The notes under the pieces were generated by a model. It saw only the letters and a program-made list of their open reading frames with translations. It was not told the DNA's origin and did not search any database. A stretch of 64,000 nucleotides of DNA from Desulfotignum sp. (lineage in GTDB: Bacteria; Desulfobacterota; Desulfobacteria; Desulfobacterales; Desulfobacteraceae): the NCBI GenBank assembly GCA_011390635.1, contig JAABSA010000019.1:1-64000 (forward strand). Reading direction: 5' to 3'. Below are positions 9,448 to 62,344 of the stretch, one piece after another (position 1 is the stretch's first letter; each line of letters opens with the position of its first letter). The position numbers and the translations under genes are program-made.

Positions 9448-12400
9448 ATGACATCCCATGCCCAGCATATTGCCGTGGTAGCCATGGCCGGTATTTTTCC
9501 GGGTGCAGCTGATACAGAACAGCTCATCCAAAATATTTTTGCAAAAAAAGAATCCATCATCCAGGTGCCGCAGCACCGCTGGGCAGCCCCTGTTGAAAAG
9601 ATGGTGAGCGGCAGGCCCCTGCCCGACCGAATCATACCGGACCGGGCGGTCTCGGACCGGGCCGGACTGATCACAGACGTTACCTTTGATGCGCATGATC
9701 TTCATCTGGAACCGGATATGGCAGCTGCCCTGGACCCGGTCCACCACCTGGTGCTGGGAGCCGGGAGAACCGCCTGCCAGTCCTGCTGCATGCCGGAGAA
9801 GGTGAGAAAGCGTACCGGCGTGATCCTGGCTGCCATTGCCCTTCCCACCGACAAAGCATCTGCCGTTTCCTGGGATATTCTGTGCACCAAAAAACCAAAA
9901 AAATACACTGCCATGGATGCTTTGGGTGCATCCATGGTGTCGGGCCCTGCGGCTGTTCTGGCCCAGGCCCTGGATCTTGGGGCCGGCAGTTTCACCCTGG
10001 ATGCTGCCTGTGCATCCTCTTTGTACGCCATCAAACTGGCCTGTGAGCACCTGAACCTGGGCAAAGCCGACGCGATGGTAACCGGCGGGGTATCCCGGCC
10101 GGATTCTCTGTACACCCAGATCGGATTCAGCCAGCTGTCCGCCTTGTCCCCGTCCGGGCGGTGCGCACCGTTCGACCGAAACGCAGACGGGCTTGTGGTG
10201 GGAGAAGGCTGCGGCATCATTGTGCTCAAGCGCCTGGCAGATGCTCTGGCCTGCCATGATCCCATCTTCGGTGTCATAAAGGGATGGGGAGTATCCAATG
10301 ACATTGAGGGCAACCTGGTGGCACCGGCATCCGAAGGCCAGATCCGGGCCATGGCAGGGGCCTGTGACATGGCAGGCCTTTTGCCTGACACCATCCAGTA
10401 CATGGAATGCCACGGATCAGGCACACCGGTGGGAGACAGGGTGGAACTTTCCAGCATCAGGGCCCATTTGGACAGATATGGATGTCCCGGCACCGCCCTG
10501 GCCATCGGATCGGTGAAGTCCAATATCGGACATCTGCTTACCGCTGCCGGTGCAGCCGGATTCATCAAAACACTGCTGGCCATGAACCGCAAAATTCTGC
10601 CGCCTTCCGTAAATTTCACCGCCCTGCCGGATAACAGCCCCCTGGACCGGACAAGGGTGCATGTGCAGACCAAAACGTCCCCATGGGACCCCGGGGCACC
10701 GGGAGTTCCCAGAAGAGCTGCCGTATCTGCATTCGGTTTTGGCGGCATCAATGCCCATATCCTGGTGGAAGAATTTTACCCTTCTGGTTCCCGGCATATC
10801 ATGCCCGGGATGGTACCACCCTCCCCTATTGATGCAAAAAAAAGCACCCTGTCCGGTTTTGCCGTCGTGGGCATGGGGAGCTTTACCCGGGACTGCCGGG
10901 ATCTGGATGCATTCACTGACCTGATACTGGGAAAAATCCAGGTTCGGCCGGCTCCGGCCGGCAACCGGTGGCGGCGTACGGACCATTTGTCAGACAGTTT
11001 GAAAGCCATGCCTGCCGGGTTTCTGGACACCATATCCATAGACATGAAAGAATTTCATATCCCCCCTGTCCAGATGACCGAAATCCTGCCCCAGCACCTG
11101 GTGCTGCTCAAGGCGGCAAAAAGTGCTCTGGCAGATGCCGGGATACAGCCCCGTCCGGGTGAGAATGATCCGCTGCGTACAAACATCGGCTGTGCCACGG
11201 GCATTGCATTCGACTTCGGGGCCACGGATTTTTCCCTGCGATGGAAAGCCCACGGCCTTGCTGACAACCTGCTGGACCAGCTGTCCCCGCCGTTGACTTT
11301 TACCCGTACCCTGGGGGCACTCGGCGGCATTGCGGCCTCCCGGGTGGCCAGGGAATTCAAGCTGGGAGGTCCCTGCTTCACGGTGTCAGCAGGTGCGGCT
11401 TCCGGCATCAAGGCCCTTGAAACCGGTATCCATTCTCTGGAAAACCGGGAAACCGACCTGTTTATCTGCGGATGTGTGGATATGGCCGGTGATATCAGAC
11501 AGTTTTCCCTGCACCATGGTGCAGATCCCTTCGGCCAGGCCCGACCGGCGGAAGGGGCCTGTGCCGTGGTCATCAAACGGCTGGAAGATGCACAAAAGGA
11601 CAATGACAGGATCTACGCTATCATTGAAGGTATCTCCGGCGGAAGTGCCGGCAGTATGGCGGCGGAAGCAGCATCTGATCCTGGTGCGGCGACCGAAACA
11701 ACCCCTGATAGATCCCCTGGCACCTCACCTGATGCGCCACCTGATGCTCCACCTGATGCTCCACCTGATGCTCCACCTGATGCTCCACCTGATGCTCCAC
11801 CTGATGCTCCACCTGATGCTCCATTTGATATCTCACCTGATACCTCCTTTGATACATCTTCTGCAATATCTTTTGACAAGGCACTTGACTCCTCTTACCG
11901 GGATGCGTTGCACCGGCTTCTGGCGGACAACCATATCCATTTTTCTGACATCTGCTTTATGGACACCCATTCCGGAGGTCATGGTACCTGGGCCGCAGCC
12001 GAAGCCCGGGCCCTTGACCAGACAGGTATTGCGGCAATTCATACAGATTGCGCCCTGGGATGGACCAGCGGCGTAGCCGGAGATACCCGGGGGACAGCCG
12101 GGTTGTTTTCCGTCATCAAAACAGCCCTGTGCCTGTTTCACCGCACCATCCCGGCATGCGCACTCGCTCCGGACTCCCTGTTTCATCCGTTGAAAAAAAA
12201 CGGATTCTCTATTCCCGGCACTGCAATGGACTGGAAAAAACCCAAATCCGGTCCCAGACGGGCTGTAACCGCAGCCATGACTGATGACGGATGTACGGCC
12301 TTCTGCCTGCTCCGGCAAGGGCCGGAGCAGATACCTGCCCCCGGCAGTAAAAGCCCCGCCCCCCTCTTTTCACTGGATAACGCTCCAGCCGAACCCATGC

Positions 12401-14058
12401 CCGGCACCAACCCAACCGGTAATTCCGGCGCATCAGCGAAACGTTCACATCCAAAACCATTGGTGATTTCCACAACCCTTCCCGCCCTGAGCGATGACCT
12501 GATGATCGCCCTGGAACAGGTGAACTGCCGGGAAAAAGCAAACATCCTGGAATCGTTATACTCCGTAGAACAGGAAAATACCATTGAACAGGGGAACCAG
12601 AAAACCTTTCCCATGGAACCACTCATGGACCCGGAACTGGTCATTGAAACCTCTGCCGCAACCGCCCGTGCCCATGAAACATTTTTGGCCTTTTCCCGGA
12701 CCAATATGCAGGAAATGCAAACCCAGCTTACAGCCCTGGCCGCAGCAGCTGCAACAGCGGCAAAAACAACTAAAACAACAACGACAGCAGCGGCACAGGC
12801 ACAAGGGACCGTACAACATACCGGCAATAGTACCCAACCCGATACGGTTCTGCCTGCTTTCACCCGGGACCAGTGTCTGGAATTTGCCGTGGGCAGGGCC
12901 GGCAGTGTTCTGGGGCCTGCATTTGCGGTTATCGACACCTATCCGGTGCGGGTGAGACTGCCGGATGAGCCCTTGATGCTGGTGGACCGGATCATGCACA
13001 TGGAAGGCACACCCGGTTCCTTAGGTCCGGGCAGAATCATCACCCAGCATGATGTTCTGCCCGGTGCCTGGTATCTGGACGGCGGGGTGGCACCGGTATC
13101 CATCTGTATTGAAGCAGGACAGGCTGACCTGTTTTTATGCGCCTGGCTGGGCATTGACCATCGGGTGAAAGGACAGCGCAGGTACCGGCTTTTAGATGCA
13201 AAAGTCACCTTTCACCGTTCCCTGCCCGTACCCGGTGAAACCATTGAATACCACATCTGTATTGACCGGTTTTTACGACAGGGGGATGTATATCTGTTCT
13301 TTTTTCATTACACGGGCTATATTGACAACCATCTGTTTATCTCCATGCGAGATGGGTGTGCCGGTTTTTTCACGGAAGAGGAAGTGAAAAACTCAGGCGG
13401 CATTGTCCTGAAAAAAGAAGATGTTTTACCTGCACAGCCTTCCGCATCTTTCCAGCCCCTGGTTCGGGTGTATCCCACGGCGTTTGATGATCAGCAGGTC
13501 GACAGCCTGCGCAAAGGCGATCTGGAAGCTGCATTCGGCCCGGAATTTGCCGGTATTTTTCCGGGAAAAGCACAGCACCTGCCCGGCGGCCGCATGCATC
13601 TCATCGACAGGGTGCTGTCCTTTGATCCAAAAGGCGGCAGATTCGGTATGGGTCTCATTGTTGCCGAAGCAGATATTGATCCGGATGCCTGGTTTCTCAC
13701 CTGTCACTTTATTGATGATCCGGTCATGCCGGGCACCCTGATGTATGAATGCTGCGCCCATGCCCTGCGCATATTTGTCCAGCGCATGGGATGGATCAGT
13801 CTGGATAACCGGGTGCATTTTACGGTACTGCCTGATAATGAAAGCGATCTAAAGTGCCGCGGACCGGTGACCCCGGCCACCAAAAAAGCCAGGTATGAGA
13901 TTGAAATAAAACAGATGGGCTGCAATCCGGCCCCCTATGTTGTTGCAGATGCACATATGTTTGCCGATGACCTGCGCATCGTTTTGTATAAGAACATGGG
14001 CATGACCCTGTCCGGTCTGACCCGGGATGCGCTCAACCAATTCTGGAGACTTGAATGA
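9448..14058 (+). CDS. PfaC-type polyketide/PUFA synthase: KS-CLF-DH-DH
   Basis: A 1536-residue megasynthase with the PfaC domain order. The ketosynthase (about 1-440) has a complete triad: Cys188 in DAACASS, His322 in ECHGSG and His362 in NIGH. The second KS-like domain (about 470-960) is a chain-length-factor type: the Cys position is Ala650, His841 is kept, and the last His is replaced by Trp872. A (PDAP)8 repeat is inserted in it at residues 761-792. A low-complexity Ala/Thr/Gln linker leads to two FabA-type hot-dog dehydratases: DH1 begins near LPDEPLMLVDR (~1140-1300), and DH2 (~1330-1520) keeps its catalytic His1420 in CHFIDDPVMPG. It would condense and dehydrate acyl-ACP chains to make polyunsaturated chains. 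No ACP, AT, KR or ER is in the window, so those must come from elsewhere. It overlaps oleA by four bases. Confidence 0.93.
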   Translation: MTSHAQHIAVVAMAGIFPGAADTEQLIQNIFAKKESIIQVPQHRWAAPVEKMVSGRPLPDRIIPDRAVSDRAGLITDVTFDAHDLHLEPDMAAALDPVHHLVLGAGRTACQSCCMPEKVRKRTGVILAAIALPTDKASAVSWDILCTKKPKKYTAMDALGASMVSGPAAVLAQALDLGAGSFTLDAACASSLYAIKLACEHLNLGKADAMVTGGVSRPDSLYTQIGFSQLSALSPSGRCAPFDRNADGLVVGEGCGIIVLKRLADALACHDPIFGVIKGWGVSNDIEGNLVAPASEGQIRAMAGACDMAGLLPDTIQYMECHGSGTPVGDRVELSSIRAHLDRYGCPGTALAIGSVKSNIGHLLTAAGAAGFIKTLLAMNRKILPPSVNFTALPDNSPLDRTRVHVQTKTSPWDPGAPGVPRRAAVSAFGFGGINAHILVEEFYPSGSRHIMPGMVPPSPIDAKKSTLSGFAVVGMGSFTRDCRDLDAFTDLILGKIQVRPAPAGNRWRRTDHLSDSLKAMPAGFLDTISIDMKEFHIPPVQMTEILPQHLVLLKAAKSALADAGIQPRPGENDPLRTNIGCATGIAFDFGATDFSLRWKAHGLADNLLDQLSPPLTFTRTLGALGGIAASRVAREFKLGGPCFTVSAGAASGIKALETGIHSLENRETDLFICGCVDMAGDIRQFSLHHGADPFGQARPAEGACAVVIKRLEDAQKDNDRIYAIIEGISGGSAGSMAAEAASDPGAATETTPDRSPGTSPDAPPDAPPDAPPDAPPDAPPDAPPDAPPDAPFDISPDTSFDTSSAISFDKALDSSYRDALHRLLADNHIHFSDICFMDTHSGGHGTWAAAEARALDQTGIAAIHTDCALGWTSGVAGDTRGTAGLFSVIKTALCLFHRTIPACALAPDSLFHPLKKNGFSIPGTAMDWKKPKSGPRRAVTAAMTDDGCTAFCLLRQGPEQIPAPGSKSPAPLFSLDNAPAEPMPGTNPTGNSGASAKRSHPKPLVISTTLPALSDDLMIALEQVNCREKANILESLYSVEQENTIEQGNQKTFPMEPLMDPELVIETSAATARAHETFLAFSRTNMQEMQTQLTALAAAAATAAKTTKTTTTAAAQAQGTVQHTGNSTQPDTVLPAFTRDQCLEFAVGRAGSVLGPAFAVIDTYPVRVRLPDEPLMLVDRIMHMEGTPGSLGPGRIITQHDVLPGAWYLDGGVAPVSICIEAGQADLFLCAWLGIDHRVKGQRRYRLLDAKVTFHRSLPVPGETIEYHICIDRFLRQGDVYLFFFHYTGYIDNHLFISMRDGCAGFFTEEEVKNSGGIVLKKEDVLPAQPSASFQPLVRVYPTAFDDQQVDSLRKGDLEAAFGPEFAGIFPGKAQHLPGGRMHLIDRVLSFDPKGGRFGMGLIVAEADIDPDAWFLTCHFIDDPVMPGTLMYECCAHALRIFVQRMGWISLDNRVHFTVLPDNESDLKCRGPVTPATKKARYEIEIKQMGCNPAPYVVADAHMFADDLRIVLYKNMGMTLSGLTRDALNQFWRLE
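11728..11823 (+). repeat. Eight tandem 12-bp units coding (Pro-Asp-Ala-Pro)8
   Basis: Eight units of cctgatgctcca, with only the first differing by one base (gcg for gct). They lie in the CLF domain coding region. The flanks (GTSPD before, PFDISPDTSFD after) look like decayed copies of the same unit. Because the unit is 12 bases, copy changes stay in frame. Confidence 0.97.
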
Positions 14059-16018: not shown

Positions 16019-16382
16019 CCCTTTTTCCCGGGTGCACGCAATCCACAGCAGCAAATATTGACTTGCCTGCCTGGATATTTGCTATAGTAGCGTGTGCTCT
16101 ATGGGGAGCCCCTGGAGGTGTCCTGTGAACGGACCGTCAGAGCCGGAGGGGGCATGGTAAGATATACCGGGATGGTTTTTAACCAGAAGGCGGGTTACCG
16201 CACATCATTGTTCTTATGCAAACATGCCCCCGCAGGATCTCGGGCCGGGCACAGGACACCTCCAGGGGCGGATCCCGGGACAAAGCTGCACAGAACGATC
16301 GAAAATCTGGCCTGCGTCTGGCAAATATCCAGTTGCCTGCAACAGGTTTTGACATTTTTATATTGCCGGGGTAAACATAGAT
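16019..16382. repeat. Intergenic structured element with nested inverted repeats
   Basis: No ORF is supported here. Nested complementary arms are visible. A 12-base pair is CTGGATATTTGC at 16071-16082 with GCAAATATCCAG at 16321-16332. A perfect 19-base pair is CCCCTGGAGGTGTCCTGTG at 16109-16127 with its complement at 16250-16268. A 9-base pair is at 16148-16156 with 16223-16231, and a small hairpin TGGTT-AACCA lies inside. Imperfect direct repeats of 20 bases (16/20 identical) at 16051-16070 and 16321-16340 flank the element. The left part recurs at 62296-62344 (44 of 49 bases identical) and part of it at 53076-53102. It could be a MITE-like element or a structured RNA. Confidence 0.75.
16059..16088 (+). 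promoter_or_regulatory. Predicted sigma-70 promoter in front of the structured element
   Basis: TTGACT (16059-16064), an 18-base spacer, then TATAGT (16083-16088). Transcription would start near 16095, at the left side of the inverted-repeat element, and continue to the gene at 16383. It may therefore drive the element as an RNA, the downstream genes, or both. Confidence 0.55.
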
Positions 16383-17123
16383 ATGCGTAAATTTTGGAAA
16401 AAAAACAAAGAACCTGAAGAACCGACCCGGGACCGGGAGGAAATGGATACTGCTGCCTCTGAATCCCGCGGCCAGACAGGAAAAAAGCAGGCGGATAATC
16501 AGCTGCCTGTTGACGATGTCCCCGCTGCTTCCCCCGTGAAAACAAAAAAAATTACCCCCAGACGTCTGCTGTTGTTTCTGGTGCTGCCGGCAGTGATTGC
16601 AGCCACCGCATGGGTGGGATATTCCTGGTTTTTTGCAGACCGGGAACCCCGAAAACCTGTGTACAAAAATATCCAGCTCGCCCATGTTTCCCTGCCGGAA
16701 GAGATGCGGCGATTCTGTTTTGAACAGATGCCGGATCTGTACAATGCCTTTGTTGCATACAACGAAATAATGGTATTGTTTGCCCATGAAATCGCCCGGA
16801 TTGACGTCATCGGTCAAAAATATCCGGAACAGCAGAAAATTGCAGCAGCTGAAAAAAAAGTGTGGGAAAGGGCAGAAAACAATTTGTCAAAGGCGTTTTT
16901 AAAAACAGAAGAAGATATCAGGCAGTTGTATGTATTGTACCAGGTCAACCAGGAAGAAGGGCTGGCCATGATACAGGAAAAACGCAATGATCTGACACAA
17001 ACAGCACAAACAGCTTTGACCGATGCCCGAACCCGGAGCGAAAAAATCATTCATCCGCCATCCCGGGAACCTGAGGGGTTTATCCGGGGAATGTTTTATA
17101 ACCTGAAAAAGAAATTTTTATGA
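16383..17123 (+). CDS. Single-span membrane/coiled-coil protein in the ole cluster
   Basis: A 246-residue protein not known as an Ole component. Residues 1-60 are charged and disordered-looking. One membrane span follows (LLLFLVLPAVIAATAWVGYSWFF, about 62-84), then a helical, Lys/Glu/Gln-rich C-terminal domain with a likely coiled coil (about 150-225). It would be anchored in the inner membrane with the C-terminal domain outside, or inside if the basic N-terminus dictates otherwise. It overlaps the oleC start by four bases, so it is co-translated with oleC. Because OleB, OleC and OleD form large assemblies in other bacteria, a scaffold or membrane tether is a reasonable guess but unproven. 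Confidence 0.8.
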   Translation: MRKFWKKNKEPEEPTRDREEMDTAASESRGQTGKKQADNQLPVDDVPAASPVKTKKITPRRLLLFLVLPAVIAATAWVGYSWFFADREPRKPVYKNIQLAHVSLPEEMRRFCFEQMPDLYNAFVAYNEIMVLFAHEIARIDVIGQKYPEQQKIAAAEKKVWERAENNLSKAFLKTEEDIRQLYVLYQVNQEEGLAMIQEKRNDLTQTAQTALTDARTRSEKIIHPPSREPEGFIRGMFYNLKKKFL

Positions 17124-53075: not shown

Positions 53076-53102
53076 CTGGCGGTGTCCTGTGAACGGACCG
53101 TC
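53076..53102 (+). repeat. Partial copy of the structured element seen at 16.1 kb
   Basis: Bases 53076-53102 match 16112-16138 at 26 of 27 positions, around the core GTGTCCTGTGAACGGACCGT. The core can fold (GTCC/GGAC). No matching right arm follows here. Confidence 0.65.
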
Positions 53103-62276: not shown

Positions 62277-62295
62277 GCATAATATCCGGATCTGA

Positions 62296-62344
62296 ATATT
62301 TGTTATAATAGCGTGCGCTTTATGGGGAGCCCCTGGTGGTGTCC
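62296..62344 (+). repeat. Second copy of the left part of the 16.1-kb element
   Basis: 49 bases, 44 identical to 16075-16123, including the -10-like TATAAT (62304-62309) and the run TATGGGGAGCCCCTGG. The similarity stops at GGTGTCC, and no complementary right arm is found. The rest of the gap up to 62565 shows no feature. Confidence 0.7.

Follow-up and report, generated by a model that had tools for sequence, protein, structure and literature searches.

We have analysed a window of 64,000 nucleotides of the sulfate-reducing bacterium Desulfotignum sp. (the whole stretch of DNA under study; contig JAABSA010000019.1, positions 1 to 64,000), in which a 262-bp element (16071-16332) lies between the end of a hydrolase gene and the start of an ORF of 246 aa. 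It contains no transposase gene. Its terminal inverted repeats (TIRs) are alike at 14 of 16 bases, an exact 8-bp target duplication, TTGCCTGC, abuts both of them, and between them lies a palindromic core. The parts of the element, and two fragments found elsewhere in the window, are as follows.

16063-16070, no strand: left target duplication TTGCCTGC, identical to 16333-16340
16071-16086, plus strand: left TIR CTGGATATTTGCTATA (consensus over 35 elements)
16083-16088: -10-like TATAGT, part of the left TIR and extending 2 bases beyond it
16104-16274, plus strand: palindromic core, the extent covered by covariance model R1 (192 bits, this copy belonging to R1's own training set)
16109-16127, plus strand: left arm of the 19-bp stem, CCCCTGGAGGTGTCCTGTG, with compensatory changes in other copies
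16130-16144, plus strand: conserved motif CGGACCGTCAGAGCC, left side of an asymmetric internal region
16137-16138: UC bulge inside the left conserved motif
16148-16156, plus strand: left arm of the 9-bp inner stem, GGGGGCATG
16157-16222, plus strand: variable loop
16223-16231, plus strand: right arm of the 9-bp inner stem, CATGCCCCC
16235-16247, plus strand: conserved motif GGATCTCGGGCCG, right side of the asymmetric internal region
16250-16268, plus strand: right arm of the 19-bp stem, CACAGGACACCTCCAGGGG, with compensatory changes in other copies
16317-16332, minus strand: right TIR, which reads CTGGATATTTGCCAGA on that strand
16333-16340, no strand: right target duplication TTGCCTGC, directly outside the right TIR
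53076-53102, plus strand: left-arm fragment with the start of the motif (96%, E 2.5e-5; weak R1 match, E 0.61)
62292-62344, plus strand: fragment with the left TIR and the beginning of the left arm (89%, E 1.2e-12; weak R1 match, E 1.2)

An earlier note on this DNA had described three nested pairs of complementary arms of 12, 19 and 9 bases, and all of them are present, those of 12 bases being CTGGATATTTGC and GCAAATATCCAG. The RNA fold of 16060-16340 has a predicted energy of -136.6 kcal/mol, compared with -100.7 (sd 5.22) for 200 dinucleotide shuffles, none of which folds as well (z -6.88 on the given strand; z -8.16 on the opposite strand). The parts that the note saw recurring at 53.08 and 62.30 kb are real, as the two fragments listed above, and its imperfect 20-base direct repeat includes the exact 8 bp that flank the TIRs.

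The note had further claimed a promoter, TTGACT-N18-TATAGT, that travels with the element. The two boxes (16058-16063 and 16083-16088) are 19 bases apart, not 18, and it is the -10-like half, as part of the TIR, that travels. Among the two-TIR elements that are at least 240 bp long and have been oriented (35), agreement with TATAAT reaches 5 or more of 6 positions at the left TIR of 24 and at the right TIR of 5; the hexamer of the left TIR points inward. A -35 box (at least 5/6 to TTGACA, spacing 16-19) was found in 1 of these 35 elements, compared with 2.2% of shuffled flanks. An own promoter was rejected, the TTGACT box being unconserved flanking DNA.

Elsewhere in the window, an ORF of 1536 aa (9448-14058) contains about nine PPDA-type tetrapeptide repeats in a run; from its look, we take it to be a large polyketide- or fatty-acid-synthase-like protein.

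Copies, short forms and taxonomic range

A search of the own genome (4.09 Mb, 98 contigs) with a 310-base query gave 55 alignments. After merging by hand, in which 10 rows matching an arm to the opposite arm and 5 second pieces of one copy were removed, about 40 distinct places remained, so the element does have the further copies that the earlier note proposed to look for. An alignment of 24 of them shows conserved arms, a highly variable loop and TIRs in the fuller copies, and in several the core is present but no TIR can be recognised. Model R1, built on 23 of the 24 (L024 was excluded), has matches in 14 of 86 family genomes, comprising all 13 Desulfotignum genomes and 1 of the 73 others. 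It also matches palindromes of about 84 bp with different stems, short forms in which the core is found outside these TIRs.

From 14 short forms a second model, R2, was built, whose sole match in the window is the reverse strand of the 16071-16332 element itself. R2 likewise matches 14 of 86 family genomes (13/13 of the genus, 1/73 others), and at the level of the order 13 of 389 (12/12 sampled members of the genus, 1/377 others); these large model searches were run with stricter filters, at which weak matches are lost. The own genome holds at least 28 R1 and at least 26 R2 matches (32 and 52 candidates were scored), and among the matches listed (27 for R1, 20 for R2) no place is common to both. 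The short forms fall, when sorted by eye, into subtypes with differing flanks. On subtype A, ends of the type GGGCAATCGCATG were seen by eye, a clear duplication being absent, and such ends are probably a second TIR frame that carries the core. When named genomes were searched for an exact pattern, the 22 stretches retrieved all came from MAGs with the label Desulfotignum or Desulfobacteraceae. A phage or plasmid origin was rejected, blastn having given no match.

A second structured repeat is likewise dispersed; it is about 200 nt long, has the apex GCGGGCAGGTATGTCCTCA and was observed at L242:1204-1401, L227:1264-1467 and L087:1249-1452 (all plus strand) and at other loci. It covaries in 22 of 65 predicted pairs (15 sequences), and it has no Rfam match at gathering score. 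In 7 of the 94 copies of the core with enough flank it lies upstream on the same strand, one of these cases (L071) being possibly due to chance, and in none does it lie downstream or on the opposite strand. In another genus of the family (genome G092), a palindrome at L079:1501-1689 has the same foot as the core and a loop that resembles the apex region of the second repeat (63 bases, 76%), as if loops had been exchanged between repeat families.

Target duplications and the insertion site in relatives

TIR pairs with at most 3 mismatches and 20-320 bp apart define, in the examined Desulfotignum DNA, 47 distinct elements, some of them being one site represented in each of two species. A target duplication of 7-9 bp at an identity of at least 0.85 accompanies 30 of them (the other 17 lack one at this threshold), whereas 200 rounds in which flanks of different elements were paired gave 0.27 on average and never more than 2; by a strict 8-bp rule (7 or 8 matching) there are 14 of 47 against 0.095 in the control. 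Target duplications are also carried by two elements of 48 bp and one of 46 bp that are nearly all TIR. Two 48-bp near-TIR-only elements with an exact 8-bp duplication, at G000:C39:74532-74579 and L222:238-285, apparently represent one site in two species.

At the gene junction of the window, the element is absent from five relatives (G001, G009, G010, G011 and G012). In them the hydrolase side aligns and the neighbouring ORF does not, so what they show, with regard to the empty sites that the earlier note had suggested looking for, is absence at the junction, short of a base-precise empty site. An element of 171 bp, oriented the other way and flanked by an exact duplication of its own, occupies the same position in G006; G003 has half a copy. 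The difference between the window and G006 is real, but an inversion was not retained as its explanation, since it could also be due to independent insertion; a second apparent inversion (L148, L163 and L018) was rejected, its insertion points being about 15-20 bp apart. At a further site, flanks and ends are common to G005 and G002, but the loop is cleanly absent from G002, where the junction falls between two CCGGAGG repeats. The 246-aa ORF next to the window copy (16383-17123) aligns at this junction in G003 and partly in G006, but not in the five relatives that lack the element.

The TIRs, the 8-bp target duplications, the roughly 40 places and the junction absence in five relatives bear out one of the two readings offered by the earlier note, that of a non-autonomous mobile element.

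Structure and strand preference of the core

Covariation in the arms, which the note had set as a check, was found in long and short copies. In alignment A1 (23 long copies, aligned without structure), two-sided changes affect 15 of 39 pairs and amount to 59 cells, where shuffles give 15.1 (sd 3.6); pairing holds in 96.1% of cells, compared with 34.7-47.7% under sliding. In A4 (32 short copies, whose selection by R2 brings some bias toward structure), they affect 19 of 27 pairs and 133 cells, compared with 36.5 (sd 4.9), and pairing is 94.1% against 35.7-54.6% when slid; kinship among the sequences can exceed such shuffle controls. That columns 28-67 show four pair types (GC, AU, CG and UA) speaks for repeated change. 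The plan within the stem, CGG-A-CYG-UC-RGA / UCY-CRG-G-CCG, is asymmetric and nearly constant, and its R/Y pairs covary; pairing is missing at columns 35-60 in 8 of 32 sequences. The stems differ widely yet remain paired around the near-constant UC bulge and purine mismatch.

Mispairs were used to ask which strand folds, in 132 distinct copies compared at 19 stem positions (2,508 pairs), with the sense strand fixed by the motif and the copies picked by the motif and at least 13/19 identity, a choice that is neutral between G-U and A-C. They comprise 84 G-U, 21 A-C and 44 others (p 4e-10), the G-U:A-C split being 34:7 in long and 50:14 in short copies. Counted once per cluster, position and type, the ratio is 69:21 (68 clusters), 59:21 (43) and 50:19 (21, p 2e-4), and the bias weakens to 36:16 (10) and 28:14 (4, p 0.04) with coarser clustering; counted once per position and type across all copies, it is 25:14. 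The test loses strength with coarser counting because the copies are related. Since a cruciform predicts equality, the excess of G-U argues that the fold of one strand, RNA or ssDNA, seems to be under selection. The other reading of the earlier note, a structured RNA, is partly upheld, by the strong covariation of the arms and the preferred fold of one strand, but ssDNA would account for the same signal.

Known systems, rival explanations and significance

By analogy, and as far as the available passages of the report go (PMC5896051), the closest precedent in plan is QMITE2 of Coxiella burnetii, a small MITE with TIRs, 7-11-bp duplications and dozens of copies, which also has small REP-like versions without TIRs or duplications and shows inversions between strains. 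The likeness, a MITE with TIRs and duplications plus REP-like short versions, is one of description. In those passages the palindrome is a GTAG REP and a target of IS1111, neither of which is seen in the Desulfotignum element, and strand-specific folding, which seems to have been selected in the Desulfotignum core, does not figure in them. With REPINs and RAYT-linked REPs, as portrayed in the parts of two reports compared here (PMC3116915, PMC2817692), the core shares two inverted conserved arms, a variable spacer, a hairpin, compensatory changes and an extragenic location. It differs from them in its longer stem, its TIR forms with target duplications and its absence near the tested Y1 loci, whereas RAYT genes are REP-flanked. 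CGTC-tagged REPs, in the excerpts at hand, are reported without a dedicated transposase (PMC3733652); none is known for the Desulfotignum motif either, which contains the letters CGTC or TGTC. In those REPs, however, the tag is terminal and unpaired, with an 8-9-bp stem, while here the letters lie inside, beneath a stem of some 19-24 bp, and the four common letters may be chance. For Desulfobacterium autotrophicum, 2,357 exact repeats of at least 50 bp were reported, and no such family is named in the sections compared (PMC2702500); among the papers that our searches of the open PMC literature listed, none describes the Desulfotignum family.

Searches for enzymes and known families bear on the rival explanations. 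Matches to Y1 transposases number two in the own genome and 45 in the genus, where 12 of 13 genomes have them, and none of 30 loci around Y1 genes, which cover part of the 45 matches, contains an R2 match. A 221-aa Y1 (RAYT-like) gene at L047:369-1034 (G000:C83) lies beside GGGGACACCATACTTAATT-type repeats, which represent another palindromic repeat that the own genome contains. Among 11 loci read, no transposase, DDE type included, was recognised with matching ends, and a candidate transposase fragment beside L130 was rejected, its protein search matching 2 of 13 genomes (the one that holds the fragment and, weakly, one other). The foot of the hairpin lacks a GTAG (GTRG) tag; in most of the aligned copies its sequence is GAGCC or AAGCC. 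At gathering score, a tRNA is the sole Rfam match in the window, and 12 loci have none; when 12 loci were scanned by E-value, two tRNAs exceeded the gathering score and the other matches were sub-threshold, including miRNA hairpin families at a short palindrome (L015 408-490) and at the second repeat (L022 319-508). A known RNA family was rejected, neither the element nor the core having an Rfam match at gathering score.

The core could be a REP or REPIN, whose hairpin a RAYT (Y1 tyrosine transposase) would mobilise as ssDNA, the TIR form being a secondary capture. Its abundance, hairpin, variable spacer and compensatory changes are those that the consulted portions of PMC3116915 describe for REPINs, one strand is preferred, short forms exist without these TIRs, and Y1 genes are widespread in the genus. 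RAYT-driven spread is nevertheless disfavoured by the absence of the core around the 30 Y1 loci, and with the different repeat beside the own genome's Y1 gene, the DDE-like target duplications of the TIR form and the untagged stem foot, we regard this explanation as unlikely. Alternatively, the core could be a structured non-coding RNA or mRNA element that is spread by transposition and kept for its function. The covariation, the strand-specific wobble and the inward -10-like hexamer are consistent with this possibility; we consider it a doubtful one, as the -35 is not conserved, no Rfam family matches and the core is almost wholly restricted to one genus. Gene context is relevant here: 25 of 62 long copies lie between divergent genes, 4 between convergent ones and 10 + 10 in tandem, and of 63 short copies 16 are divergent, 13 convergent and 8 + 8 tandem, the rest having one flank without a gene call (raw counts without a baseline, from an unvalidated codon-usage caller). 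A cis-acting RNA is unsupported because there is no orientation preference among tandem genes (10 vs 10 in long copies).

It could also be that double-stranded DNA alone matters, with a cruciform or a simple inverted repeat in which correction between the arms keeps them similar. Templated correction can change both arms together, and the loop loss in G002 is compatible with slippage at the base of the hairpin; however, G-U and A-C mispairs should then be equally frequent, and correction should erase the asymmetric motif that is nearly constant, which makes this reading improbable. The earlier note had also been reminded of retrons, msr-msd units copied by a reverse transcriptase. The closing stem and the variable loop are all that the element has in common with them, it has TIRs and target duplications, and the own genome (96.4% complete) has no RVT_1 match at E 0.001, a search that was positive in 3 of 14 control genomes; a retron-like origin is extremely improbable.

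The element represents a new family within the MITEs, a kind already known, and on sequence evidence a MITE with a REP-like palindromic core is the best explanation, which we regard as likely. On this reading it is a 262-bp non-autonomous DNA transposon with 16-bp imperfect TIRs, and its insertion duplicated 8 bp of target. We propose that it was moved in trans by a TIR-acting transposase, probably of the DDE type, that may have been lost; in an autonomous partner, the transposase gene would be bounded by ends of the type CTGGATATTTGCYATA. Its cargo is the REP-like core, which would be recognised as a folded single strand, either as an RNA hairpin or as ssDNA of the given strand, and such recognition could help copies to persist or multiply. 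What is unusual is the core: its stem drifts yet stays paired, its asymmetric motif hardly varies, and the fold of one strand seems to be preferred. More tentatively, and we think this rather unlikely, the core might be an independent multiplying unit, recognised as one folded strand and devoid of GTAG and CGTC tags, that spreads alone as well as inside at least one TIR frame and probably a second, that with GGGCAATCGCATG.

How small gene-less bacterial palindromes multiply, and whether they act as RNA or as DNA, is unsettled. The comparison of G-U with A-C mispairs addresses, from sequence alone, which strand was selected to fold, and it could be used on other repeat families, and here, across many copies and species, MITE and REP-like core appear as separable modules. 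If the core were indeed an independent unit, its class would be defined by the UC bulge and purine mismatch under a drifting, always-paired stem, and one hairpin would ride unrelated transposons inside a single genus.
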